NCBI RefSeq assembly: GCF_016865365.1
Contig: NZ_AP024469.1
Coordinates: 4,184,501 to 4,248,500 of the forward strand
From: Geobacter sp. SVR
Lineage (GTDB): Bacteria > Desulfobacterota > Desulfuromonadia > Geobacterales > Pseudopelobacteraceae
Length of the DNA: 64,000 bases
Direction of reading: 5' to 3'
The first letter of the stretch is position 1. Each line of letters starts with the position of its first letter. The position numbers were made by a program, and so were the translations under genes. This document shows positions 336 to 62,893 of this stretch, in pieces. Below the pieces are notes generated by a model. The model saw only the letters and a program-made list of their open reading frames with translations, had not been told where the DNA came from and made no database searches.

Positions 336-1691
336 ATGAAACATAAGATCCTGATAATCGACGACGATTCTTCATTGCGGCGGGTGCTGGAGTACAACCT
401 CCAGGAGGAGGGGTATGAGGTGCAGTCGGCCTCATCGGGTGAGGAGGGTCTTTACTGGCTGGGCCAATGCCAACCCGACCTCGTCATTACCGACATGAAA
501 ATGACCGGCATGGATGGGCTGATGGTGCTCAAGTCGATCAAGGAACGTTGGCCGGAGACATTGGTGATCATCATAACCGCCTTCGGGACGATCGATGTGG
601 CGGTGGCAGCCATGAAAGCCGGTGCATTCGACTACATCACCAAACCCTTCAACAGAGACGAACTGAGGTTGACGGTCCAAAGAGCCCTTCAGTTCAACGG
701 ACTGGCTGAGGAAAACCGGCGGCTGAAACACGAACTGTCGGATAAGGCAGATCTTCGCAGCATGATCGGCTCATCGCGGGCAATGGAGAAGGTGTTCGAA
801 CTTATCCGCAAAGTGGCCGACACGGAGGCATCGATCCTGATTACCGGCGAATCCGGCACGGGGAAAGAACTGGTGGCGCGCTCCATTCATGCCAGCAGTT
901 CCCGCAGGGATGCACCGTTCATCGCCGTCAATTGCGCTGCGATTCCCCACAATTTGCTGGAAAGCGAACTTTTCGGCCATACAAAGGGGGCATTCACCGG
1001 TGCGGTCAAGAACAAGCCCGGCAAGTTTCAGTTGGCAGAGGGGGGCACGCTTTTCCTGGATGAGGTGGGAGAACTACCGCTCGAACTGCAGCCAAAACTG
1101 CTCAGGGCGCTGCAGGAAAAGGAGGTAGAGCCGATCGGGGGTACACAGGTACAAAAAGTCGATGTCCGCGTGGTATCAGCCACAAACCTGGACACCGAGA
1201 AAGCCTTGATCGAAGGGACATTCCGCGAGGATCTCTATTATCGCTTATCCGTTATTCCCGTCAGCCTGCCGGCGCTCCGCGAACGGCGCAACGACATCCC
1301 GCTGCTGATCAGGCATTTCTGTCACAAGCTGGGGGGCCAAAAGGTCACCTTCGACAAAGAGGCCCTTGACGTATTATGCGCCTATGCATGGCCCGGTAAC
1401 GTGCGTGAGCTGGAAAATACGGTCGAGCGGCTACTGATCATGCGAAACGAGGACAGGATCGAGCGTGCGGATCTGCCGGAAAAGTTCCATCAGAACGTTG
1501 CTGCCGGCGGTGCAGTCTTGACCCTGCCCGATGAGGGATATTCGCTCGAACAACTGGAGCGGGAAATCGTTGTTTCGGCCCTAGAACGGAACTCTTGGAA
1601 CCAGTCGTCCGCAGCCCGTTTTTTACGGATCCCGCGGCATACCCTTATTTACCGGATCGAAAAGTACGGCATTGCCCTGCCGGGCAGATAG
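336..1691 (+). CDS. Sigma-54-dependent response regulator (NtrC family)
   Basis: A 451-residue, three-domain transcriptional activator. An N-terminal receiver (about 1-120) has the acidic cluster IIDDD and phosphoacceptor Asp53 in LVITDMKM. A central AAA+ domain carries Walker A GESGTGKE, the sigma-54 contact loop GAFTGA and Walker B TLFLDEVGELP. A C-terminal Fis-type helix-turn-helix is present (SSAARFLRIPRHTLIYRI). The protein is expected to hydrolyse ATP to remodel RNA polymerase-sigma-54 at -24/-12 promoters after phosphorylation by a partner kinase. No kinase gene is next to it inside the window; it may lie upstream. The ATG at 336 has a GGAG five bases upstream. The target genes cannot be told from the sequence. 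Confidence 0.95.
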   Translation: MKHKILIIDDDSSLRRVLEYNLQEEGYEVQSASSGEEGLYWLGQCQPDLVITDMKMTGMDGLMVLKSIKERWPETLVIIITAFGTIDVAVAAMKAGAFDYITKPFNRDELRLTVQRALQFNGLAEENRRLKHELSDKADLRSMIGSSRAMEKVFELIRKVADTEASILITGESGTGKELVARSIHASSSRRDAPFIAVNCAAIPHNLLESELFGHTKGAFTGAVKNKPGKFQLAEGGTLFLDEVGELPLELQPKLLRALQEKEVEPIGGTQVQKVDVRVVSATNLDTEKALIEGTFREDLYYRLSVIPVSLPALRERRNDIPLLIRHFCHKLGGQKVTFDKEALDVLCAYAWPGNVRELENTVERLLIMRNEDRIERADLPEKFHQNVAAGGAVLTLPDEGYSLEQLEREIVVSALERNSWNQSSAARFLRIPRHTLIYRIEKYGIALPGR

Positions 1692-1731
1692 CGGAGGGTA
1701 TTTGATGCGCCGTGTCCTTTGCCGTACCCTC

Positions 1732-2238
1732 TCAGCGGTCGAATCGTCCCCCGCAATCCCGTTGGTCGCCGCGGATCTTCTCCACCCCATGCCCGATTAC
1801 CGGCCAGACCGCCTCCAGGTTTTCGACCGCCCCCTTGGGGCTGCCCGGCAGGTTGATGATCAAGGACTGGTTGCGGATGCCGGCCACGGCCCGCGACAGC
1901 GATGCCATCGGTGTTTTTTCCAGGCTCCGCAGACGCATCAACTCACCAAGACCAGGTACCAGCCTGCTGCAGACCTGCATGGTCGCCTCGGGAGTCACGT
2001 CACGCGGCGAGACGCCGGTGCCGCCGGTGGTCAGGATCAGGTCGGCGATGCCCCGGTCGGCCCAATCGCTCAGCACCTCCACGACCCGGTCATACTCGTC
2101 CGGGATGATATCTGTCTGCACCGTCTGCACTCCCCGCTCGGCCATCCAGGCGGCCAGCGCCGGTCCACTGGTATCCACCCGCTCCCCGCGCGACCCCTTA
2201 TCCGATAGCGTCAAAATGGCTGCTCTGATCTCGCTCAA
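1732..2238 (-). CDS. mogA: Molybdenum cofactor biosynthesis protein, MogA/MoaB type
   Basis: A 168-residue protein of the MoCF-binding fold, which adenylylates molybdopterin before molybdate insertion. The hallmark GGTGVSPRDVTPEA motif and a C-terminal NLPGSPKGAVEN segment are both present. The open frame extends further upstream, but the likely start is a TTG at 2238 that overlaps the moaC stop by four bases. A GGAGG lies seven bases before it, and the protein from that start (LSEIRAAILTLSDKG) matches the usual family beginning. The gene is the last of a pilT-moaC-mogA run. MogA and MoaB are close paralogues, so the exact name is uncertain. Confidence 0.88.
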   Translation of the reverse strand: MSEIRAAILTLSDKGSRGERVDTSGPALAAWMAERGVQTVQTDIIPDEYDRVVEVLSDWADRGIADLILTTGGTGVSPRDVTPEATMQVCSRLVPGLGELMRLRSLEKTPMASLSRAVAGIRNQSLIINLPGSPKGAVENLEAVWPVIGHGVEKIRGDQRDCGGRFDR

Positions 2239-2732
2239 GGTTGATCCTCCCGCTTGTCTGCTTCCCGGCGATAAATGCCGCTCTTGCCCCCCTCTTTGTA
2301 CAACAGCCTGATATGGCCAATGGCGATCGACTTGTCGCTCCCCTTGCACATATCGTAGATAGTCAGGGCCGCCAGGCTGGCGCCTGTCATGGCCTCCATC
2401 TCCACTCCGGTCCGCTCGAAAGCCCGCACCGTGCACTTCACCATGATGCGACCGGAGGCCGCATTCGGCTCGAAATCGACAAAAACGGCATGCAGGGCCA
2501 GCGGATGGGAAAGCGGGATCAGCTCCGGCGTGCGTTTGGCAGCCTGGATGCCTGCCAGCCGCGCCACGCCCAGCACATCCCCCTTGGCAACGCCCCCGGC
2601 CTGGATGGCGGCAACCAACTCCGAGCTCATCTGCACCAGTGCTTCGGCAACGGCGGTGCGCATGGTCGGCTGCTTGGCCGATACATCCACCATCACCGCA
2701 TTGCCCCGCTCATCGAAATGATTGAAGTTCAT
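2235..2732 (-). CDS. moaC: Cyclic pyranopterin monophosphate synthase MoaC
   Basis: A 165-residue protein that, together with MoaA, converts the GTP-derived intermediate into cyclic pyranopterin monophosphate, the first step of molybdenum cofactor synthesis. Family signatures are visible: RLAGIQAAKRTPELIPLSHP and VEMEAMTGASLAALTIYDMCK. The ATG at 2732 (MNFNHFDERG) was preferred over an upstream in-frame start because GAGG lies seven bases before it and the N-terminus then matches the family. It begins 23 bp after the pilT stop and overlaps mogA by four bases, so the three are probably co-transcribed. moaA and moeA are not in the window. Confidence 0.95.
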   Translation of the reverse strand: MNFNHFDERGNAVMVDVSAKQPTMRTAVAEALVQMSSELVAAIQAGGVAKGDVLGVARLAGIQAAKRTPELIPLSHPLALHAVFVDFEPNAASGRIMVKCTVRAFERTGVEMEAMTGASLAALTIYDMCKGSDKSIAIGHIRLLYKEGGKSGIYRREADKREDQP

Positions 2733-2755
2733 ATCGTTACCTCGTCGGATCGAAA

Positions 2756-3844
2756 TCAATGCCCGCCTGCTGCCGGAGCAGCCGCTTCATGGGGCAGGAA
2801 CTGTTCGAACTGCTTCTTGTCGATGGCACAGCGGTAGGCCTCTTCGGGATTGACTCGCTGGGCCTTGAGCAGTTCCATCAGGTGCGTGTCCATCAGCTGC
2901 ATGCCCTCCTTCTTGCCAGTCTGCATGATGGAGGGGATCTGGAAGGTCTTGGCCTCCCGAATCAGGTTGGCGATGGCCGGTGTACCGAGCATAATCTCCA
3001 GGGCCGCTACCCGTCCCCTGCCGTCGGCGGTCTTGAGCAACTGCTGGCATACCACCCCTTTCAGCGACTCGGACAGCATGGCGCGCACCTGTTCCTGCTG
3101 ATCGGTGGGGAAGACATCGATGATACGGTCGATGGTCTTGGCGGCCGTGTTGGTGTGCAGGGTGCCGAACACCAGATGGCCGGTCTCGGCGGCGCTCATG
3201 GCTAATTGGATGGTGGTCAGGTCGCGCATTTCCCCCACCATGATCACATCCGGGTCCTCACGCAGGGCCGCCCGCAGGGCCGAGGCGAAGCTCTCGGTGT
3301 GCTCGCCGATCTGGCGCTGGTTCACGAGCGAGAGCTTGTTCTCATGTATGAACTCCAGCGGGTCTTCCAGGGTCAGGATGTGTTCCTTGCGGGTGGAATT
3401 GATCAGGTCCACCATGGCCGCCAGGGTGGTGGACTTGCCCGAACCGGTCGGCCCGGTCACCACCACCAGTCCCTTCTTGAACCTGGTCATGCGCAGCACC
3501 CCTTCCGGAAGTGCCAGCTGCTCCGCCGACAGGATTTTGCTGGGGATCATACGGAAAACCGCGGCAATGCCACGGTGCTGCATGAGGATGTTGCCGCGGA
3601 AACGGGCCAGCCCCTCCACGGAATAGGCAAAGTCGAGATCCTTGCTGGCCTCGAACTGTGCGCGCTGCTTCTCTGACAGGATCTCGAACAGGATGGCCTT
3701 CAGATCCTCATGTCCCAGCGACTTGAAGTTGAGGCGCACCATTTCCCCATGCAGGCGGAAGATCGGAGGATTGCCGGTGGAGAGGTGCAGGTCCGAGGCA
3801 CCCTCGTCCTTCATCATCTTGAACAACGCATCGATACGCGCCAT
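2756..3844 (-). CDS. pilT: Type IV pilus retraction ATPase PilT
   Basis: A 362-residue hexameric ATPase that powers pilus retraction. Visible motifs are Walker A GPTGSGKST, the Asp box LTLEDPLEFIH, the Walker B/His boxes GEMRDLTTIQLAM and GHLVFGTLHTN, and the C-terminal AIANLIRE that corresponds to the PilT AIRNLIRE motif needed for retraction (one residue differs). The open frame runs 59 codons further upstream. The ATG at 3844 (MARIDALFKMMKDEGASDLH) was chosen because GGAGAACCT precedes it and the N-terminus then fits the family. No other pilus gene is adjacent, and Geobacter relatives usually carry several pilT paralogues, so this could be a PilT-like paralogue. The 232 bp between it and dnaB contains no gene. 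Confidence 0.93.
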   Translation of the reverse strand: MARIDALFKMMKDEGASDLHLSTGNPPIFRLHGEMVRLNFKSLGHEDLKAILFEILSEKQRAQFEASKDLDFAYSVEGLARFRGNILMQHRGIAAVFRMIPSKILSAEQLALPEGVLRMTRFKKGLVVVTGPTGSGKSTTLAAMVDLINSTRKEHILTLEDPLEFIHENKLSLVNQRQIGEHTESFASALRAALREDPDVIMVGEMRDLTTIQLAMSAAETGHLVFGTLHTNTAAKTIDRIIDVFPTDQQEQVRAMLSESLKGVVCQQLLKTADGRGRVAALEIMLGTPAIANLIREAKTFQIPSIMQTGKKEGMQLMDTHLMELLKAQRVNPEEAYRCAIDKKQFEQFLPHEAAAPAAGGH

Positions 3845-4076
3845 AGGTTCTCCTGTTGGATTTCGTACTAGTACAGTCTGAATTCGTGACGCCGGACTAC
3901 CGGAGTACCTGAAAGAGCCGGGGCCCCAACGTCGCCCGGATGCGGCTTTCGTTGTATCGGCAGGCCCTCCGCAGAAACGTTCCATACCATCACGCTGCAA
4001 AGGCAGAGGCCTTTCAGGCACTCCGGCAGGGAGGCGTTGCGGATTCAGGAATATATACAGCCACCGCTCGAGACTC

Positions 4077-5456
4077 CTACACGTCGCTGCGCTCGCTCAG
4101 GTTCTCGAAGCGGGTATGCTCGCCGTAGAAGGCCAGCGGTACCGTTCCCAAGGCGCCGTTCCTCTGCTTGCCGATGATCACCTCGGCATTGCGGTCGTGG
4201 TTCTGGGTGCAGGAGCCGTCCCGCTTGCGGCAACTGTCGCAGTAGACCGCCTCGCGGTACACGAACATGATCACGTCCGCATCCTGCTCGATGGCGCCCG
4301 ATTCGCGCAAATCGCTCATCATTGGGCGCTTGTCGGCGCGCTTCTCCAGTTCGCGGTTGAGCTGGGACAGGGCAATCACCGGCACGTTCAGCTCTTTGGC
4401 AAGTGCCTTGAGCGAACGGGAGATGTCCGAGATCTCCTGCTGCCGCGATTCCACATTGGCGCCGCCGCGCATCAGCTGCAGGTAGTCGACGATGATCATG
4501 CCGATGTCGTGCTCGCTCTTCAGCCGGCGCGCCTTGGAACGCAGCTCCAGCACGGTGATGGCCGGCGTGTCGTCGATGAAGATCTTGGCATCGTGCAGGA
4601 TACCGGCCGCCCGCGTCAGGCGGGGCCAGTCCGAATCCTGGAAATGGCCCGTGCGCATCTTGCCGAAGTCGATCCGGGCCAGGGAGGCGAACAGACGCAT
4701 GACCAGCTGTTCCTTGCCCATCTCCAGCGAGAAGACCACCGACGGCACCCGGTTCTTGTTGCGCGGATCGGCGCTGGCATACTCGGCGATGTTGAGGGCC
4801 AGGGTGGTCTTGCCCATGGAGGGACGGGCCGCGATGATGATCAGGTCGCCCGGCTGGAAACCGGCGGTCATCAGGTCCAGGTCCACATATCCAGTCGGTG
4901 TACCGGTAACCAGTTCCTTCTTGGAGTGCAGGGTCTGCAGGATCTTGAAAGTTTCCTTAATGATCTCCTTGACCTGCACGTACTGGGGACGCATCTTGTT
5001 CTCGGAGATCTCGTAGATCTGCTTCTGGGCGATATCCAGCAGCTCATTGACGTCGGCCTGCTCCTCGTAGCCGCGGGTGGCGATCTCGGTGGCCACGCTG
5101 ATCAGCCGCCGGTTGATCGACTTTTCCTTCACGAGCTTACAGTAATAGGAGATGTTGGCCGCAGTGGGAACGTAATCCACCAAAGTGGCCAGATAGGCCG
5201 CTCCCCCCACCTCCTCCAACTCTCCCTTTTTCTTCAGCGTGGCGCTCAGAGTGATCAGGTCGCACGGCTCACGCTGGTCCGAGAGCAGCATCATGGCCAG
5301 GAAGATCTTGCGGTGACTTTCGCGGTAGAAGTCATCCTGGGTCAGCACTTCCAGCACCCGGTTGATGGCATCGTTATCGATCAGAATGCCCCCCAGGATG
5401 GACATCTCGGCTTCCAGGCTCTGGGGGGGCAGTTTATGCAGTTCAGCGGTACTCAT
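4077..5456 (-). CDS. dnaB: Replicative DNA helicase DnaB
   Basis: A 459-residue hexameric 5'-3' helicase of the replication fork. The N-terminal DnaB_N domain (LPPQSLEAEMSILGGIL onward) is followed by a RecA-like motor with Walker A ARPSMGKTTLALNIA, Walker B MIIVDYLQLM and the conserved LSQLNRELEKR segment. The length is normal, and the P-loop region, a frequent intein site in this family, is uninterrupted. The ATG at 5456 has GGAG nine bases upstream. It starts 15 bp after the aminotransferase gene, so it may share a transcript with the sugar-modification genes, an unusual partnership. Confidence 0.97.
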   Translation of the reverse strand: MSTAELHKLPPQSLEAEMSILGGILIDNDAINRVLEVLTQDDFYRESHRKIFLAMMLLSDQREPCDLITLSATLKKKGELEEVGGAAYLATLVDYVPTAANISYYCKLVKEKSINRRLISVATEIATRGYEEQADVNELLDIAQKQIYEISENKMRPQYVQVKEIIKETFKILQTLHSKKELVTGTPTGYVDLDLMTAGFQPGDLIIIAARPSMGKTTLALNIAEYASADPRNKNRVPSVVFSLEMGKEQLVMRLFASLARIDFGKMRTGHFQDSDWPRLTRAAGILHDAKIFIDDTPAITVLELRSKARRLKSEHDIGMIIVDYLQLMRGGANVESRQQEISDISRSLKALAKELNVPVIALSQLNRELEKRADKRPMMSDLRESGAIEQDADVIMFVYREAVYCDSCRKRDGSCTQNHDRNAEVIIGKQRNGALGTVPLAFYGEHTRFENLSERSDV

Positions 5457-50718: not shown

Positions 50719-50967
50719 TTACTCAACCTCGTCCAGCATGTTCAACGCAAAATTCTTGGCCCGGCCGGATGGTGCGATGATGCCGTAGGCGATCGCCTCA
50801 CGCAGTTCCTCCCTGGTGGCCCCTGCTTCCTTCGCGACCGCGAAGTGCTTCTTCAGTCAGGTGGGGCAACCGACGGCAATGGCGCAGGCCACCCGGATCA
50901 GTTCACGCGTCCTTACATCCAGGACCTCTTCGTACTCATAATCGAGTATCTTCTTGCGCAGTTTCAT
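50719..50967 (-). CDS. AhpD-like selenoprotein with CxxU redox motif (TGA = Sec)
   Basis: An 82-residue protein of the AhpD/carboxymuconolactone decarboxylase family, read through an in-frame TGA at 50859-50857 (codon 37). The motif is Cys34-Pro-Thr-Sec37, matching the CxxC peroxidase centre of AhpD, in the context VACAIAVGCPT-U-LKKHFAVAKEAG. The reading frame continues with family-like sequence after the TGA (ATREELREAIAYG, NFALNMLDE) to a TAA. The ATG at 50967 overlaps the glnE stop (ATGA) and GGGAGGG lies just upstream. A SECIS-like hairpin follows the TGA, and SelB is encoded at 60983. A nonsense mutation is the alternative, but all these features argue against it. Likely role: thiol-dependent peroxide reduction. 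Confidence 0.85.
50830..50859 (-). promoter_or_regulatory. Candidate bacterial SECIS element
   Basis: On the minus strand the UGA (50859-50857) is followed after 17 bases by a GGUC apical loop (50839-50836) closed by a perfect 6-bp stem, CTTCGC (50845-50840) with GCGAAG (50835-50830). SelB-binding SECIS loops of formate dehydrogenase mRNAs also carry GGUC, and the usual UGA-to-loop distance in bacteria is about 16-37 bases. The bulged U of the E. coli element is not evident. Confidence 0.7.
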
Positions 50968-53900
50968 TCCGCCCTCCCTTTGTCCAACCGTGCGCCCATC
51001 ACCCTGTCGTAACAGTCGCGTATTCTGCCGGTGATCTCCTCGTAGTCGCTGATCAGCGCGGAACCGGGATTCTTCAGGCGGGGATCGTACCCCAGCCGGA
51101 GGGCCAGCTTGTTCAGGTAGCCTGCCGGACCCGACAAATCGCTGACCGAGTAGTCGTGAATGATGCGCAGCCGGTTCTCCAGTTTGCGCAGGAACTTGTA
51201 TCCGGAAACCAGCATGGCGGCATCCCCTTCCGGCAGCAACCCCAGGGTGCCGGCCTCCTTGAGCGCCACGACCGTGCTGGTGGTGCGTACTTCCGGGTAA
51301 TGCCAGCCATGGCGGAGCTGCAGGTACTGGGAGATGAATTCCACATCCACCATGCCGCCGCGGCCTGTCTTGATATTATAGCTGTCAGCCGTTTCTTTGG
51401 CCAGTTCGTGCTCCATGCGCATGCGCAGGCGATGGATTTCGCTGCGCCCCTCTTCCTTGATGGACAGGCCGTACACGGTCTGGCGGATGATATCCTGCAG
51501 CTGACCTGCCAGCACTTCGTCGCCGAGTACCACGCGCGCCTTGGTCAGGGCCTGGCGTTCCCATATCTGGGCCTCCTTGCGATGATACTCCAGAAACGAA
51601 TCCAGGGAGGTCACCAGGGGCCCGGCATTGCCTGACGGTCGCAGGCGCGTGTCGATCTTGTAGACGTATCCTTCGCGGGTCTGCATGGTCAGGATCGAGA
51701 TCATCTTCTGGGCCAGCTTGGCGAAATACTCGTGATTGGTGATCTGCTTTTCGCCATCGGTACAGCCTTGATGATCGTAGACAAAGATGATGTCCAGATC
51801 GGAGTGGTAGTTGAGATCGCCTCCCCCCATCTTGCCCATGCCGACGACCGCCAGATTCGCCCCCAACACGTCCCCGTCAGCCCGATAGGTGGGCTGACCG
51901 AAGCGCTTCAGCTCCTGAACTCCCAACCGGTAGGCGCTTTCCAGGCACGCTTCGCTCAGCAGGGTCAGCTGACTGGTGGTCTCGCTCTGTCCCAGCCGCC
52001 CCTGGATATCGTTCAGGCCGATCCGCAGGAATTCCTCGTTCCGGTAACGCCGCAGCACGTCAAGCTGTTCCTCGAAATGCTCGGCCTGTTCCAGCAGCCC
52101 CGTCAGTTCCTCCGACAGTTCTGCGCGGCTCTTGACCGTAGCGGCGTACCCGCGGGTCACCAGGCTGTCCAGCAGCTCCGGGTGCCCGATCAGGATCTTT
52201 GAGAGGAAGGCCGACATGCCGAACAGCGACACCAGCAGTTTCAGCGTCTCGCGGTTCTCGGCCAACAGCGCATAGTAGGACGAACGGGTGCCGATGACTG
52301 CCAGGAAGCGCTCCAGGTTGGCCAGGGCCATGTCCGGGTCTGGGGACTCGAACAGCTCCTGCACCAGCAACGGCGAGATCTTTTCCAGCAGGCGGCGGTT
52401 GCGCTCGGTCAGGTTGCCCTTGGCAGGGCCGTTGCGCAGGGAAAGCAGGTTGGCATAGGCACGATCCACATCCTCGAACCGCCGCTCGGCCAGCATGTCC
52501 TTGACCAGGTCGGGATCGGCATTGTGATCGAGAAAAAACATCACTTCGGGGTTCAGGTCCTGCTGCAGCTTCTCGTCACGGGCGTGGAACAGGGTGCCGT
52601 AGATGGAGGAGACATTGCGGCGATGCTCCTCCAGCACCTCACGGAAGCGGTCCAGTCCGTTCGGCCTCAGAAAGCCGCTGCGCCGAGCCAGGGCCAGCAG
52701 TTCGTCCGGTTTGCCCGGCAGATTGTGGGTCTGCCGTTCCTGCACCACCTGGATGCGGTGCTCCACCGTGCGCAGAAAGCGGTAGGCGCCGGAGAGCTTG
52801 CGGTGGTCGTCCTCTGAAATCAGGCGGGCTTCCAGCAATGTATCCAGCGCCTTGAGAGAATTGCGCTCGCGCAGTTTCGGGTTCTTGCCGGCATAGACCA
52901 GCTGCAGCGCCTGGATGAAAAATTCGATCTCGCGGATGCCTCCCCGCCCCAGCTTGAGATTGGTCTCCCCTTCCCGCGAGCGGGTCAACGAAGCATCGAT
53001 CTTCTGCTTCATGGTCTTCATATCCTCGATCAGATTGTAATCGAGGTATTTGCGGTATATGAAGGGATGCAGGGTCCGCAGCAACTGTTCTCCCAGCTCC
53101 AGCGAGCCGGCAACGGGCCGCCCCTTGAGCATGGCGGTGCGTTCCCAGGATTGTCCCCAGGACTCGTAATAGATCTCGGCCGAGCGCAGGGAAACCGCCA
53201 TATCCCCGGACTTCCCCTCGGGGCGCAGCCCCACATCCACCCGAAAGACAAAGCCGTCCTCGGTTACCTGGGAGAGCGCCTTGCTGATCATCTCCCCCAG
53301 CTTGTTGAAAAACTTGTGCAGGGAGATCACTCCTTTGGGAGTGCCGGAGCCGTTGGCAATGCCGCTGGTCTCTCCCCGGTCCGACTCGTAGAAATAGATC
53401 AGGTCTATGTCCGAAGAGAAATTCAGCTCATTGCCGCCGAACTTGCCCATGGCTATGACGGTCATTTCCGCCTCGTGCGGCCCGTGTTCGGCCTGCACCA
53501 GCGGCACCCCGAATTCGCGCACCAGGCAGCGGCGGCACGATTCATAGGCAACCTGCAAGGCGGCGGCCGCCAGACTGGAAAGCTCGCCGGTCACCTCCTC
53601 CAGGGGCGCCAGACCACACAGGTCGCGGGCCGCGATACGCAGAATCTCGGCCCGTTTGAAACAACGCAGAAGCTTCATCAGCGCGGCGAAATCGGCCTGA
53701 TCGTCCATCTGGCTGCGCAGAACAGCCAGCATCTCGTCTGGCATGCGGGAGATATCGATCCCGTTCTCGAGATAGAGCCAGTGGAAAGCGGTGGGGTCTT
53801 TGAAGATCAGATTGACCAGGAAGGGGGAGGACCCGCACAGCAGCACGAACTGGGCGAGCCGCTTGCGGCGGTTGGCCACTGCGGCCAGATCTTCAGGCGG

Positions 53901-54152
53901 AATGACCCCGGCCAGACGCTCGAAGGCATTCAGCGCCATGTCCGGCGAAGGGGTCAGCAGCGCATTGACGACAATGCGGTGGAGGGTTTCGGTGGAGAAA
54001 TACTGCCAGGTCAGCGCGATATTAGCGGCCGAACGGGCGCCGTACTGAAAACCGTGCGCCTCCAGGAATACGGCCAGTTCCCGTTCGCGCGCCTCAGCCT
54101 CGCTGACAGCCATTATGCGGTGAAATTCCTGCGAGAAGCGTTCGACGTGCAT
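50964..54152 (-). CDS. glnE: Bifunctional glutamine synthetase adenylyltransferase/deadenylylase
   Basis: A 1062-residue protein with two nucleotidyltransferase domains that add and remove AMP on glutamine synthetase, tuning nitrogen assimilation. Both catalytic centres are visible: MGKFGGNELNFSSDIDLIYF in the N-terminal half (adenylyl removal) and MGKMGGGDLNYHSDLDIIFV in the C-terminal half (adenylyl transfer), each with the DxD pair. The frame extends 14 codons upstream to a TTG; the ATG at 54152 (MHVERFSQEFHRI) with GGAA upstream was preferred. Its stop overlaps the start of the AhpD-like selenoprotein gene. Confidence 0.95.
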   Translation of the reverse strand: MHVERFSQEFHRIMAVSEAEARERELAVFLEAHGFQYGARSAANIALTWQYFSTETLHRIVVNALLTPSPDMALNAFERLAGVIPPEDLAAVANRRKRLAQFVLLCGSSPFLVNLIFKDPTAFHWLYLENGIDISRMPDEMLAVLRSQMDDQADFAALMKLLRCFKRAEILRIAARDLCGLAPLEEVTGELSSLAAAALQVAYESCRRCLVREFGVPLVQAEHGPHEAEMTVIAMGKFGGNELNFSSDIDLIYFYESDRGETSGIANGSGTPKGVISLHKFFNKLGEMISKALSQVTEDGFVFRVDVGLRPEGKSGDMAVSLRSAEIYYESWGQSWERTAMLKGRPVAGSLELGEQLLRTLHPFIYRKYLDYNLIEDMKTMKQKIDASLTRSREGETNLKLGRGGIREIEFFIQALQLVYAGKNPKLRERNSLKALDTLLEARLISEDDHRKLSGAYRFLRTVEHRIQVVQERQTHNLPGKPDELLALARRSGFLRPNGLDRFREVLEEHRRNVSSIYGTLFHARDEKLQQDLNPEVMFFLDHNADPDLVKDMLAERRFEDVDRAYANLLSLRNGPAKGNLTERNRRLLEKISPLLVQELFESPDPDMALANLERFLAVIGTRSSYYALLAENRETLKLLVSLFGMSAFLSKILIGHPELLDSLVTRGYAATVKSRAELSEELTGLLEQAEHFEEQLDVLRRYRNEEFLRIGLNDIQGRLGQSETTSQLTLLSEACLESAYRLGVQELKRFGQPTYRADGDVLGANLAVVGMGKMGGGDLNYHSDLDIIFVYDHQGCTDGEKQITNHEYFAKLAQKMISILTMQTREGYVYKIDTRLRPSGNAGPLVTSLDSFLEYHRKEAQIWERQALTKARVVLGDEVLAGQLQDIIRQTVYGLSIKEEGRSEIHRLRMRMEHELAKETADSYNIKTGRGGMVDVEFISQYLQLRHGWHYPEVRTTSTVVALKEAGTLGLLPEGDAAMLVSGYKFLRKLENRLRIIHDYSVSDLSGPAGYLNKLALRLGYDPRLKNPGSALISDYEEITGRIRDCYDRVMGARLDKGRAE

Positions 54153-54273
54153 GACCGTTCCATGAGGTAGAGTGTCGAGCAACGACTGTGGCAATTACAC
54201 AGAGGGGCGAGCAGCCGGACACCTCTGCTTCCTCGTTTCACCAATCCGGATACCGGCTTATCCAGGAATCAGC

Positions 54274-55514: not shown

Positions 55515-55634
55515 ATGAGTACAAGCGGTAGCATTTCTGAAACAAATGCACGTTCGATTGACATTACCCCCGAGAAACAGTTGCCATCCCCGTTTCCTCC
55601 CTTGTCTCGTCTGTGGAACATGAACAACCCATGA
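55515..55634 (+). CDS. 39-residue ORF overlapping the helicase start
   Basis: A short open frame (MSTSGSISETNARSIDITPE and further to ...NMNNP). A GGGAA lies just upstream, and its TGA overlaps the ATG of the JAMM-DinG gene (ATGA). That helicase gene otherwise lacks a clear ribosome site, so translational coupling from this ORF would explain its expression. The peptide itself has no recognised similarity and may have only a regulatory role. The candidate promoter abuts it, which weakens the case. Confidence 0.4.
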   Translation: MSTSGSISETNARSIDITPEKQLPSPFPPLSRLWNMNNP

Positions 55635-58168
55635 ATCGATATTTTACCAATGACGCCCTGCTGCTGATGCGCCACGAGATAGAACTGGCCGGCGGCAACG
55701 AAGTCTTCTTCATCGGCCGCACCAATCTGGACGGGATTGTCTGCGAAGTAGAGACCATTGCCCGCGGCAGCAAAAATGCGGTTCCGGCCATATTGTCCCG
55801 CGCCGTTGGCGGAGACGTGGTGATTCACAATCATCCCTCCGGCGACCTGACCCCTTCGGCAGCCGATATGGATATCGCCTCTGTGGCCGGCAATCAGGGC
55901 ATCGGCTGCTCCATCGTGGATAACGGCTGCACGCGCTGCTACCAGGTGGTGACCCCTTTTATGGAGAAGAAGGGAGAGCTGCTTTCACTGGACGAGATCA
56001 GCCGGATCTTCGGTGCCGAGGGGGTACTGGCTGTCAATCTGAAGGGTTTCGAACAGCGCGACGAACAGATGCGCATGGCCTTTGCCGTGTGCGAAGCCTT
56101 CAACCGCAACCGCGCCATACTGGTTGAGGCCGGCACCGGTACCGGCAAATCCCTGGCCTACCTGATCCCGTCGATCCTCTGGGCAGTCCGCAACAACGAA
56201 CGGGTGGTAATCTCCACCAACACCATCAATCTCCAGGAACAGCTGATCCGCAAGGACCTGCCCTTCCTGTCCCGCCACGCACAGGTCGAGTTCAAGGCGG
56301 CCCTGATCAAAGGGCGCAGCAATTACGCCTGCCTGCGCAAGCTCGAAAATGCCGAGGCCGAGCCGAGCCTGTTCCCGGATGAGTCCGCCTCGGAGCTGAC
56401 CGCCATCATCGAGTGGAGCAAGAGTGCCGGAGACGGCTGCCGCAGCGACCTGACCTTCATCCCCCATGCCGGGACCTGGGAGGAGGTCTGTTGCGAAGCC
56501 GACCAGTGCGGGCGTTCACGCTGCAAACACTTCAACCGCTGCTTCTTCTACCGGGCACGGCGCGAAGCCTCGGCCGCCCGGATACTGGTCGTCAATCACG
56601 CCCTGCTGCTGTCGGACATCGTGCTGCGCAGCGAAACCGGCTACGACGCCACCGCCATCCTGCCACCCTTCACGCGCCTGATCTTCGACGAGGGACATCA
56701 CCTGGAGGATGTAGCCACCAGCCATCTGTCGCAGGTGATCTCGCGCGGCGGCATCCTCAAGCAGTTGCACCGCTTGGTGCCGGCCAAGGCTGCCCGGGCC
56801 GGACTGCTGACGATCGTATCCAACCGCCTGGCGCGCGACCTGCCCGAGGCGCAGGAGGCACTTTATATCGAGCTTTCGGGGCTGTTGGAAACCCATCTGT
56901 TGCCCAAGGCACATGACCTGGCTGCCAGGACCGATGCGACCATGGACTGGCTGGCGCTGGCGGTCGAACAGGAAACCGGCAGCGCCGCGGGGAGGGAACA
57001 GAAGCTGCGCATCACGCCAGCGGTGGAAGGGAAAGCATTCTGGCAGGAATGCCGCCAGCGCCTGCACAGCCTCTCCGACGCCGTCGCGGATTACACCTCG
57101 GCCCTGCGCAGCCTGTTGCGGCGCTGCGAAGCACTTCCGGAAAAGCTGCGCGAACGCCTGTCCGACCAGCTCGTGGATATCGCCGGAATCGAACAGCGTC
57201 TGCAGGCCGTGGTGGAAGGGTTTCTATTTTATACCGCAGGGGCCGAAGGGTTTTGCCGCTGGATCGAAGTCAAGCGCGGCTCGCGCGGCCTGCAGGCAAG
57301 GCTGTGCGCTGCACCGCTGGACATCTCCGGACAGGTCAAGCAGACGATCCTGGACCGGCTCAAGACCATTGTTGTCACCTCGGCCACTCTGACGGTAGGG
57401 GGGCAATTCGAATACCTGAAAAAACGGACAGGTTTCGGACTTTTGGAAACCGCCCGCCTGGATGAGCTGCAGCTGGCCTCTCCCTTCGACTACGGCTCAC
57501 AGGTGTTCGTGGCGGTGCCGGACGACATGCCCGAGCCGACCGCTCCCGGCTTCAGGGAGGCGCTGGAGCGGCGGGTTCTGCAGGCGGTGACCATTTCACG
57601 GGGGGGCGCCTTTATCCTGTTCACCTCTTATGACCTGCTGAACAAGGTCTATACGGCCCTGGCACCGGAACTGGCCCGGCTGGGGCTGACGGCGCTGAAG
57701 CAGGGTGAAACCGGTCGCCATGCGCTGCTGGCACGCTTCCGCAAGGAGCACAATGCAGTACTGTTCGGTACCGATTCGTTCTGGGAGGGTGTGGATGTGA
57801 AGGGGGATGCCCTGCGGCTGGTGATCATCGCCCGCCTGCCGTTCCAGGTGCCGACCGAGCCGGTCCAGCAGGCGCGGGCCGAGCAGATCCAGTCATTAGG
57901 AGGCGATCCCTTCCGGGACTTCTCGATACCCCAGGCAGTGATCAAATTCCGTCAGGGATTCGGCCGGCTGATCCGCAGCCGGGACGACCGGGGTGCGGTC
58001 CTGATTCTGGACCGGCGGGTGACCACCAAGGGCTATGGCAGGACTTTTCTGCGATCTCTGCCCGATACGGAGCTGGTCAGGGGTGAGTCCGGGGAGGTGT
58101 TCAGGCGGATGGAGGGGTTTTTCAACCAGAAATCGTGTGCCACAGAGGACACAGAGAAAGGCAGGTAG
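55631..58168 (+). CDS. JAMM/RadC-type metalloprotease domain fused to DinG/XPD-like helicase
   Basis: An 845-residue fusion. The N-terminal domain (about 1-125) has a complete JAMM/MPN+ zinc motif, HxHx10D (His66, His68, Asp79 in HNHPSGDLTPSAAD), as in RadC-like proteins. It is followed by a DinG-type superfamily 2 helicase with Walker A EAGTGTGKS (near 170), a cysteine cluster for a 4Fe-4S site (CCEADQC, CKHFNRC), DEGH box, FGTDSFWEGVDVKG and QGFGRLIRS. The helicase half probably unwinds R-loops or damaged DNA 5'-3'. The role of the protease half is unknown. The last residues (KSCATEDTEKGR) come from a repeat-like sequence. The ATG at 55631 fits the family; a GTG six codons upstream is possible. 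Confidence 0.9.
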   Translation: MNRYFTNDALLLMRHEIELAGGNEVFFIGRTNLDGIVCEVETIARGSKNAVPAILSRAVGGDVVIHNHPSGDLTPSAADMDIASVAGNQGIGCSIVDNGCTRCYQVVTPFMEKKGELLSLDEISRIFGAEGVLAVNLKGFEQRDEQMRMAFAVCEAFNRNRAILVEAGTGTGKSLAYLIPSILWAVRNNERVVISTNTINLQEQLIRKDLPFLSRHAQVEFKAALIKGRSNYACLRKLENAEAEPSLFPDESASELTAIIEWSKSAGDGCRSDLTFIPHAGTWEEVCCEADQCGRSRCKHFNRCFFYRARREASAARILVVNHALLLSDIVLRSETGYDATAILPPFTRLIFDEGHHLEDVATSHLSQVISRGGILKQLHRLVPAKAARAGLLTIVSNRLARDLPEAQEALYIELSGLLETHLLPKAHDLAARTDATMDWLALAVEQETGSAAGREQKLRITPAVEGKAFWQECRQRLHSLSDAVADYTSALRSLLRRCEALPEKLRERLSDQLVDIAGIEQRLQAVVEGFLFYTAGAEGFCRWIEVKRGSRGLQARLCAAPLDISGQVKQTILDRLKTIVVTSATLTVGGQFEYLKKRTGFGLLETARLDELQLASPFDYGSQVFVAVPDDMPEPTAPGFREALERRVLQAVTISRGGAFILFTSYDLLNKVYTALAPELARLGLTALKQGETGRHALLARFRKEHNAVLFGTDSFWEGVDVKGDALRLVIIARLPFQVPTEPVQQARAEQIQSLGGDPFRDFSIPQAVIKFRQGFGRLIRSRDDRGAVLILDRRVTTKGYGRTFLRSLPDTELVRGESGEVFRRMEGFFNQKSCATEDTEKGR
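58137..58162 (+). repeat. Repeat-like tail sequence inside the helicase 3' end
   Basis: GTGCCACAGAGGACACAGAG and the bases after it match, from memory, a short repeat type often found between genes in many bacteria (CCACAGAGGACACAGAG family). Here it encodes the final residues of the helicase, an EDTEK-type tail commonly seen where such repeats enter a coding end. No second copy was found in this window. Confidence 0.4.
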
Positions 58169-60656: not shown

Positions 60657-60986
60657 ATGGATCAATTTCATCTGCCGCTGTTCCTGCTGAACACTCTGCT
60701 GGTGCTGTTGGACGCCTCTCTCGGCTTTTTCCTGGCTCCGCGCCTTTTATCGCTCTTCAATCCCGATGATCCCGAGGCCGGCGCGAGCGTGGCACGTTCC
60801 ACCCGCCGTCTCCTGCCGGCCATCGTGGCGCTGTACATGTTCTTCAACTGCCTCGGATACTTTCAGGCCCGCCCGGCCTACCTGCTGACAGTCTGCGGTC
60901 TGATCCTGACCGATCTGGCACTGCAGTTGCTGTTGCGCCGCAAGGCGCGCAGATTCGAGACGGATCAGGGGGACGAGCACCAGTGA
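60657..60986 (+). CDS. Small membrane protein overlapping selB
   Basis: A 109-residue protein with about three membrane segments ([40 protein letters not shown] and [19 protein letters not shown]) and a charged C-terminal tail. I do not recognise a family. The ATG at 60657 has GAAGGA upstream. Its TGA overlaps the GTG start of selB (GTGA), so the two are translationally coupled, which is an odd partner for a translation factor. Confidence 0.78.
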
Positions 60987-62893
60987 AACACCTGATCCTC
61001 GGCACGGCCGGACATATCGACCACGGCAAGACCTCTCTGGTCAAAGCCCTGACCGGCACCGACACCGACCGTCTCAAGGAGGAGAAGGCGCGCGGCATAA
61101 CCATCGAGCTGGGGTTTGCCCATTTGCAGCTGCCGGGGGGTGTCCGTTTCGGGATCGTGGACGTGCCGGGGCACGAAAAGTTCGTGCGCACCATGGTAGC
61201 CGGCGTGGGTGGCATGGACCTGGTCATGCTGGTGATCGCGGCTGACGAGGGCATCATGCCCCAGACCCGCGAACATCTCGATATCCTGCGGCTCCTGGGG
61301 GTCAAAAGCGGATTGGTGGCATTGACCAAGCGCGACATGGTCGACAACGACTGGCTGGAACTGGTGACCGAAGAGGTGCGCGAATTCGTGGCCGGAACCT
61401 TTCTGGAGCAGGCCCCCATCTGCGCGGTCTCTTCGAAGACCGGCGAAGGACTGGACTGGCTCAGGGAAGAACTGGAGCGCCTGGCCGGCGAGGTGGCCGA
61501 AAAGCGCCGCGAAGGGCACTTCCGCCTGCCGGTCGACCGGGTCTTCACCATGCCCGGTTTCGGCACGGTCGTGACCGGTACGCTGCTGGCCGGCGAGATA
61601 ACAGTGGGAGATGAACTGGAATTGCTGCCCGGGGAACGCCAGGGCAGAGTGCGCGGCATCCAGGCTCATGGCACCAGTACCGACAAGGGGCTGGCCGGCC
61701 AGCGCCTGGCCGTCAATCTGCAGGGCATCGACCTGTCCGAGGCCCACCGCGGCGATGTGGTGGTGCCCCGGGAGACCTTCCGGGCCACCCGGGCGGTGGA
61801 TGTGCGCCTGGACTACCTTTCCTCGGCTCCGCGGCCGCTGAAGCACCGTTCCACGGTACGTCTGCACTCGGCCACCTACGAGGTGCCGGCCCAGGTGATC
61901 CTGCTGGACCGCGACGCCCTGCAGCCGGGAGAGAGCGCCTACGCCCAGCTGCGCCTGAAGGAACCCGCGCTGCTGCTCTCCGGCGACAGTTACATTCTGC
62001 GGGCCTTTTCGCCCCAGGTAACCGTTGGGGGGGGCATTACCCTCGATCCGTTCCCTCCGCACCGCCGCAGGCGGAGCGCCGATGCGCTGGCCCTGCTCGA
62101 AGCGCTGGATACTGCAGAACACCAGCGCACCCTCGGGCTGATCATCGGCCAGAGCCTGTTGTCCGGCATCGGCCACGACGAGCTGCTGCTGCGTGCCGGT
62201 ATTTCCCGCAAGGTGGCCGAAGCGGCCCTGTCGGCGCTGCTCGGCTCGGGCGAGGCCATCCAGGTGATACGCGAACCGCGGATTTTTCTGGCACGAGAGG
62301 CGTTCGACACTCTGAAAAAAGGCCTGCTGGAGGAAGTGGCGGCATTCCTGTCCGCAAATCCGCTCAAGGCAGGCATGGGCAAGGAGGAGCTCAAGACCCG
62401 TCTGCCCAGACGGAGCGACCCGCGTTTCTTCACGCCGCTGCTGGCTGCCCTGGAGCGGGATGGGACGGTGGTGTCCGACCGGGAGATCGTCAAACCGGCC
62501 GGCCGGACCATTGGTGCCGCCATTGCGACCGACGGCCTGGCCGCCAGAATCGCTGCCTTTCTGCAGGAAAAAGGGATCGAGCCCCCCACCATCAAGGAGA
62601 TCATGGAGCGCTTCCGCTGCGACGAAAAGAGTGTGCGCGACAACCTGGCCCTGCTGACCAGGAACAACGACGCGGTACGCATCTCCGGCGATCTGTTTTA
62701 TGCCACGGCTGCCTTGGATGGCCTGCGGGAGAAACTGGTGGCGCTCCTGAAGGACAAGGGTGAAATCACCCCTCCCGAGTACCGCGATGTGACCGGCCTG
62801 TCGCGCAAGTTCCTGATCCCGCTCCTGGAACATTTCGACGGCGAGAAGGTGACCATCCGGGTGGGTGACAAGCGGATGCTGCGGAAGCGGTGA
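60983..62893 (+). CDS. selB: Selenocysteine-specific elongation factor SelB
   Basis: A 636-residue GTPase that brings Sec-tRNA to UGA codons by binding the SECIS hairpin. G motifs are [30 protein letters not shown] and TKRD. Domains II-III follow, then the C-terminal string of winged helices (for example [71 protein letters not shown]) that bind RNA. The GTG start overlaps the small membrane gene. It shows that the organism makes selenoproteins and supports reading the TGA at 50857-50859 as selenocysteine. selA, selD and selC are not in the window. Confidence 0.97.

Follow-up and report, generated by a model that had tools for sequence, protein, structure and literature searches.

A UGA-containing AhpD-like gene overlapping glnE in Geobacter sp. 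SVR as a predicted member of a catalogued selenoprotein family, with a constrained hairpin downstream of the UGA codon

In the genome of Geobacter sp. SVR, a short reading frame abutting glnE is interrupted by a single TGA, which raises the question of whether the locus holds a broken gene or an intact one in which UGA is read as selenocysteine and, if the latter, what its product would do. We analyzed this locus within a 64,000-nucleotide stretch of DNA (hereafter the window) and by comparison with related genomes. The frame runs on the minus strand from an ATG at 50967-50965 to a TAA at 50721-50719 and spans 82 codons, with its single in-frame TGA (50859-50857) at codon 37, so that read-through translation gives a C34-P-T-U37 motif. 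Its start codon shares the four letters ATGA with the glnE stop (TGA, 50966-50964), and directly upstream of the ATG lies a ribosome-site-like stretch, AGGGAGGG; the identity of glnE itself is upheld by NCBIfam NF008292. Because of the 4-nt overlap, co-transcription of the two genes is likely in this genome. An earlier, sequence-only reading had described an 82-codon frame with one TGA whose start overlaps the glnE stop, and both its coordinates and its description are correct, the minus strand being a detail that it left unstated (Table 1).

Table 1. Coordinates of the UGA-containing gene, its predicted decoding elements and associated genes in the window.
Feature	Position	Strand	Remarks
GSU3128-family (NF041047) AhpD-like selenoprotein gene (predicted)	50719..50967	-	82 codons plus stop; C34-P-T-U37
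UGA codon 37, predicted to be read as selenocysteine	50857..50859	-	TGA at the aligned codon in 86/86 family loci
Putative SECIS core hairpin, CUUCGC-GGUC-GCGAAG	50830..50845	-	starts 11 nt past the UGA; apical loop 17 nt past the UGA
glnE (glutamine synthetase adenylyltransferase)	50964..54194	-	stop overlaps the selenoprotein gene start by 4 nt
selB, selenocysteine-specific elongation factor	60983..62893	+	TIGR00475, 353.8 bits (cut-off 242.25)

The read-through protein scores 57.8 bits against the Pfam CMD profile PF02627 (cut-off 23, E 1.1e-15) and 156.3 bits against NCBIfam NF041047, the "GSU3128 family (seleno)protein" (curated cut-off 110, E 1.6e-46), where the alignment spans residues 1-81 of the 82 in the protein and positions 1-82 of the 84 in the profile. 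Given these two matches and those found in multiple genomes, the frame lies far beyond chance, and the AhpD/CMD assignment made in the sequence-only reading is borne out. NF041047 membership follows from the score above the cut-off together with a CxxU motif whose UGA occupies the second redox position. Judged by these comparisons, the gene is a genuine and mostly ordinary member of an already catalogued family of Geobacter-type bacteria. Table 3 of a 2006 survey (PMC1794560) credits both Geobacter sulfurreducens and 'G. uraniumreducens' with a selenoprotein entered as "distant AhpD homolog"; the same homolog is given as CxxU in a 2022 review (PMC9312934), and NF041047, again with CxxU, is tabulated in a 2026 review (PMC13188914). 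A set of predictions from 2005 (PMC1242214) further contains a carboxymuconolactone decarboxylase entry in G. sulfurreducens, which is probably the same gene as the distant AhpD homolog. The earlier description of the selenoprotein as 'hidden' must therefore be given up, as the family is both curated and present in the selenoprotein lists of 2006, 2022 and 2026.

What would such a protein do? Its structure model has a mean pLDDT of 95.3, and the top Foldseek matches are of the CMD type (5dik, 1vke, 1p8c, 3bey and the RclX structure 7y4r); no PDB entry is matched by Foldseek at E <= 0.001 (best 3.2e-03, probability 1.00), and the best PDB match by sequence is 3bey at 1.2e-08. An alignment of 34 proteins shows no variation at E22, C34, residue 37 or H41, whose spacing reproduces that of Glu118, Cys130, Cys133 and His137 in Mycobacterium tuberculosis AhpD, four of the five residues in the relay described for that enzyme (PMC3141380). 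The position of the fifth, His132, which the same source describes as not absolutely conserved, is occupied by Thr in the window protein, by T, D, A or V across 86 family loci, and by H in three distant relatives. The combination of a CMD fold with the Glu-Cys-Cys/Sec-His relay residues marks the protein as AhpD-like. We propose, with high confidence, that the gene encodes an 82-residue NF041047 selenoprotein of AhpD/CMD fold, with Sec placed at the UGA by means of a downstream hairpin and with redox cycling between C34 and U37. In such a scheme SelB, loaded with Sec-tRNA(Sec), would decode the UGA at codon 37 under the guidance of the hairpin in codons 41-46; the resulting thiol/selenol pair would most likely alternate with a C34-U37 selenenylsulfide, activation of the selenol may be aided by E22 and H41, and the reaction itself would probably be the reduction of either a hydroperoxide or a partner's disulfide.

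The last step is where the proposal branches. Given its fold and its E-C-U-H set of residues, thiol-peroxidase activity appears plausible. The selenoprotein could instead serve a partner peroxiredoxin as its disulfide adaptor or reductase, in the way that AhpD works with AhpC, or be an enzyme that does not handle peroxide at all, an alternative to which we assign a probability only slightly short of one half: AhpD has been described as a disulfide adaptor and the peroxidase activity of the AhpD-like PA0269 is weak (PMC3141380), yet no peroxiredoxin was seen beside the gene, either among 10 neighboring ORFs from four loci compared with Pfam or in the rest of six loci read by eye over the first 70 residues. 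Peroxidase and disulfide adaptor are accordingly rated about equally likely, and no assay of an NF041047 member was found in the open-licence literature. In one distant relative (L112), a stretch upstream and on the same strand (566-4605) carries flavodoxin, rubrerythrin and NADPH-dependent FMN reductase, neighbors that give a weak hint of peroxide defence.

The redox chemistry proposed above presupposes that the UGA is a sense codon, and it is here that the comparison across genomes is most informative. A match at E <= 1e-33, with exactly one TGA each time, is found in 44 of 57 genomes, that of strain SVR being among the 57. Two collections, with some genomes present in both, together provide 86 family loci (family match at E <= 1e-20) comprising 72 distinct sequences; TGA encodes the fourth residue of CxxU in every one of them, with motif variants CPTU (56), CPDU (25), CPAU (2), CPVU, CQTU and CRTU (one each), and it stands at codon 37 in 80 loci and one codon later in six that carry a one-residue insertion. 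The claim that Sec takes the second redox position in a CxxU motif is thus supported. A scan of named genomes gave 46 loci, of which 42 belong to the family; the remaining four (L077-L080) encode distant CMD proteins that have Cys and intact frames. One family member (L057) has an altered C-terminus. Class-wide, 136 of 277 genomes exceed the NF041047 cut-off with a total of 137 matches, all with TGA, and none of 14 control genomes matched; a further, sub-cut-off match in G651 covers profile positions 1-32 only. A phylum sample of 395 genomes includes 16 that exceed the cut-off, each of them with TGA, against none of 14 controls, and a search of plasmids at E <= 1e-10 returned no match to the family. 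No Cys form over the family cut-off occurs in the 277 class or the 395 phylum genomes; weak CMD matches with open frames (L077-L080 and phylum matches of at most 50 bits) are tentatively taken as other CMD subfamilies and not as Cys forms of NF041047.

These data bear directly on the possibility of a pseudogene or truncated protein, in which the TGA would be a real stop with decay beyond it. Translation table 11 does end the frame at codon 37, and the ORF list has no entry of 60 aa or longer there; nonetheless, in the 34 aligned proteins the part beyond the TGA is conserved much as the part preceding it (invariant: H41, A43, A45, K46, G49, A50, E54, A60 and N72), and the frame is kept through the TGA in 137 of the 137 class matches over the cut-off, with TGA as the only stop in 136, which makes this explanation very improbable. 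Decay after codon 37, named in the sequence-only reading as what would speak against it, is not what the relatives display. One genome (G568; C107 and C112) has two family copies, of which one bears an additional in-frame TAG and is possibly a decaying duplicate. At the level of sequence, the comparison shows the UGA to be kept as a sense codon.

A second line of evidence concerns the RNA downstream of the UGA. Codons 41-46 (CAC TTC GCG GTC GCG AAG) fold into a 6-bp stem capped by a GGUC loop. The SECIS model given in PMC13188914 has a stem of 4-16 bp, a loop of 3-9 nt with a G in its first two positions and located 16-37 nt past the UGA; the window gene agrees with its geometry (6 bp, GGUC, 17 nt). 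A limit of -7.5 kcal/mol has been published for the folding energy. Of the 72 distinct family members, 71 can form the 6-bp stem, as can all five distant relatives considered below; the standard hairpin obeys the loop-G rule in 66 of the 72, and in six of the 72 it has no G in the first two loop positions. The one member devoid of the standard stem (L094, in G003) has a different 8-bp hairpin with a GGCA loop (-14.3 kcal/mol).

Folding energy by itself is ordinary. The bare stem reaches -7.1 kcal/mol, -8.4 with 6 nt of 3' flank and -11.4 for the first 48 nt; the folding z-score over 50 nt is +0.57, and 144 of 200 shuffled sequences match or better the native fold. In a strict stem-only scan at -7.5 kcal/mol, 12 of 72 members pass at the UGA and up to 24 of 72 pass elsewhere, at positions from 99 nt before to 78 nt after it, and such an energy-based scan fails to single out the UGA. 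An Rfam scan of the 64-kb window gave no matches at gathering scores. Since neither energy scan nor z-score discriminated, the case for a SECIS element rests on wobble conservation, assessed over 61 testable codon columns in 50 representatives that share less than 90% nucleotide identity. Columns 46, 45, 42, 41 and 44 occupy the top five places in codon conservation, and 41-46 is the highest-ranking window of six codons; the codon for F42 is TTC in 50 of 50 representatives, as compared with 42 TTT and 30 TTC for F73 in the 72 distinct members. With the wobble bases of codons 41-46 frozen and the remainder of the gene drifting, the comparison of sequences shows the hairpin after the UGA to be constrained beyond its protein code, and the gene offers a clean case of a putative SECIS element made visible through its frozen wobble bases.

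The decoding machinery is likewise in place. In addition to selB, the genome of strain SVR has selA (602.8 bits), selD (373 bits) and tRNA-Sec (77.8 bits), all over their cut-offs; its selD (C1:3639376-3640299, L096) carries an in-frame TGA and probably encodes a selenoprotein too. SelB is over its cut-off in 54 of the 57 genomes and tRNA-Sec in 52. Among the 44 carriers of the gene the corresponding counts are 43 and 42: no SelB exceeds the cut-off in G028, a genome 52% complete, and no tRNA-Sec does so in G009 and G023, which are 98% and 66% complete. Of the 13 non-carriers, G005 and G025 are without both, G013 is without tRNA-Sec, and the other ten have both; Sec decoding therefore does not imply the presence of this gene. 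That the UGA is read as some other residue, Trp or one inserted by a suppressor, is a notion to which the comparative nature of the case for Sec lends some room, but the full Sec machinery in this genome, its near-constant company with the gene among the carriers, the alignment of the residue with a redox Cys of AhpD and the frozen hairpin at SECIS distance render it highly improbable. A sequencing error of TGC or TGT, for which a single-base difference would suffice, can be dismissed as practically negligible, since all 86 family loci, drawn from two collections, carry TGA at the corresponding codon.

Is the gene then tied to glnE? An inferred link between nitrogen control and redox defence had been part of the sequence-only reading, and it is not supported by the comparison. 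glnE lies directly upstream in 20 of the 44 carriers, all from the window's own family, where the two genes overlap by up to 4 nt or stand up to 82 nt apart, and was not found within 1.5-3 kb upstream in the other 24. Flanks in other lineages vary (by Pfam, L046 has a MatE transporter and dihydrodipicolinate synthase there, L074 a cytochrome and GreA/GreB), and no conserved neighbors were recognized there (six loci read by eye over the first 70 residues; the 10 ORFs of four loci compared with Pfam differ). With an adjacency that is lineage-specific, we dropped a functional link between selenoprotein and glnE and consider the nitrogen-redox connection not worth pursuing on present evidence. As to the wider surroundings, about 10 kb separate selB and the selenoprotein gene in the window, and at least seven further genomes of the family (G001, G004, G007, G014, G019, G026 and G029) have the two 9-12 kb apart, as a shared synteny block. 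The window also encodes, at 55613-58168 on the plus strand, an 851-aa DinG/YoaA-like helicase in which a short RadC-like match lies close to the N-terminus, and an ORF near the selenoprotein gene of L061 has a similar-looking start.

The DNA after glnE was also inspected for traces of the gene in genomes without it. No remnant was seen after glnE in 11 non-carrier loci read by eye over about 1.5 kb downstream (at most 130 codons per forward frame), L099 and L108, where the contig ends after glnE, standing outside this reading; tblastn of the protein against all 13 non-carrier loci at E <= 10 gave chance-level matches only (best E 1.9 over 9 residues). Five phylum members outside the class (G335, G176, G204, G354 and G295) score 65-71 bits, below the cut-off, with TGA in a CxxU motif; all five keep the CUUCGC/GCGAAG stem (L111-L115, match around 5001), and identity with the window protein is 41-46% in the four included in the alignment. 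The NF041047 family is thus apparently more ancient and more widespread than its model implies and, as far as examined, Sec-only. A CMD protein in L116 (G347, 1875-2060) has Cys-Asp-Pro-TGA with a different downstream sequence and is possibly a separate CMD selenoprotein.

Because no Cys form was found over the cut-off, no recognizable remnant follows glnE in the non-carriers, and UGA and stem persist in divergent relatives, we tentatively entertain a Sec-obligate AhpD family, in which there may be mutual constraint between the hairpin in the RNA and protein residues 41-46, Sec-to-Cys change would be blocked and loss would proceed by deletion; we hold this to be possible, if somewhat less probable than its contrary. 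The absence of a Cys form from the searched genomes provides a useful test of why some selenoproteins stay without reversion to cysteine. It represents, along with the five divergent relatives retaining UGA and stem, a small addition to what was known of a predicted selenoprotein family that comparative genomics now backs and for which we found no biochemical study in the open-licence literature.

How, finally, does the window protein compare with known systems? With the NF041047 family, the distant AhpD homolog of earlier lists, it agrees in score (residues 1-81), CxxU motif and Geobacter-type hosts; nothing essential differs, the glnE overlap being a feature of the Geobacter sp. SVR gene. 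It has an AhpD-type domain in common with NF041537 (ArsM-AhpD), NF045649 (MduS), TIGR04169 and NF041238, of which NF041537, MduS and NF041238 are stated to have CxxU in PMC13188914, but these are separate families: the window protein scores far under the cut-offs of NF041537 (36.4 vs. 510), NF045649 (36.5 vs. 380) and TIGR04169 (29.3 vs. 120), and NF041238 is absent from its NCBIfam profile matches. With the Mycobacterium AhpD and PA0269 AhpD-like hydroperoxidases it shares both the CMD-type fold and the E-x11-C-x2-(C/U)-x3-H pattern, whereas it differs from them in its predicted Sec in place of the second Cys, in a His132 position that is not conserved, and in consisting of a single short domain of 82 residues.
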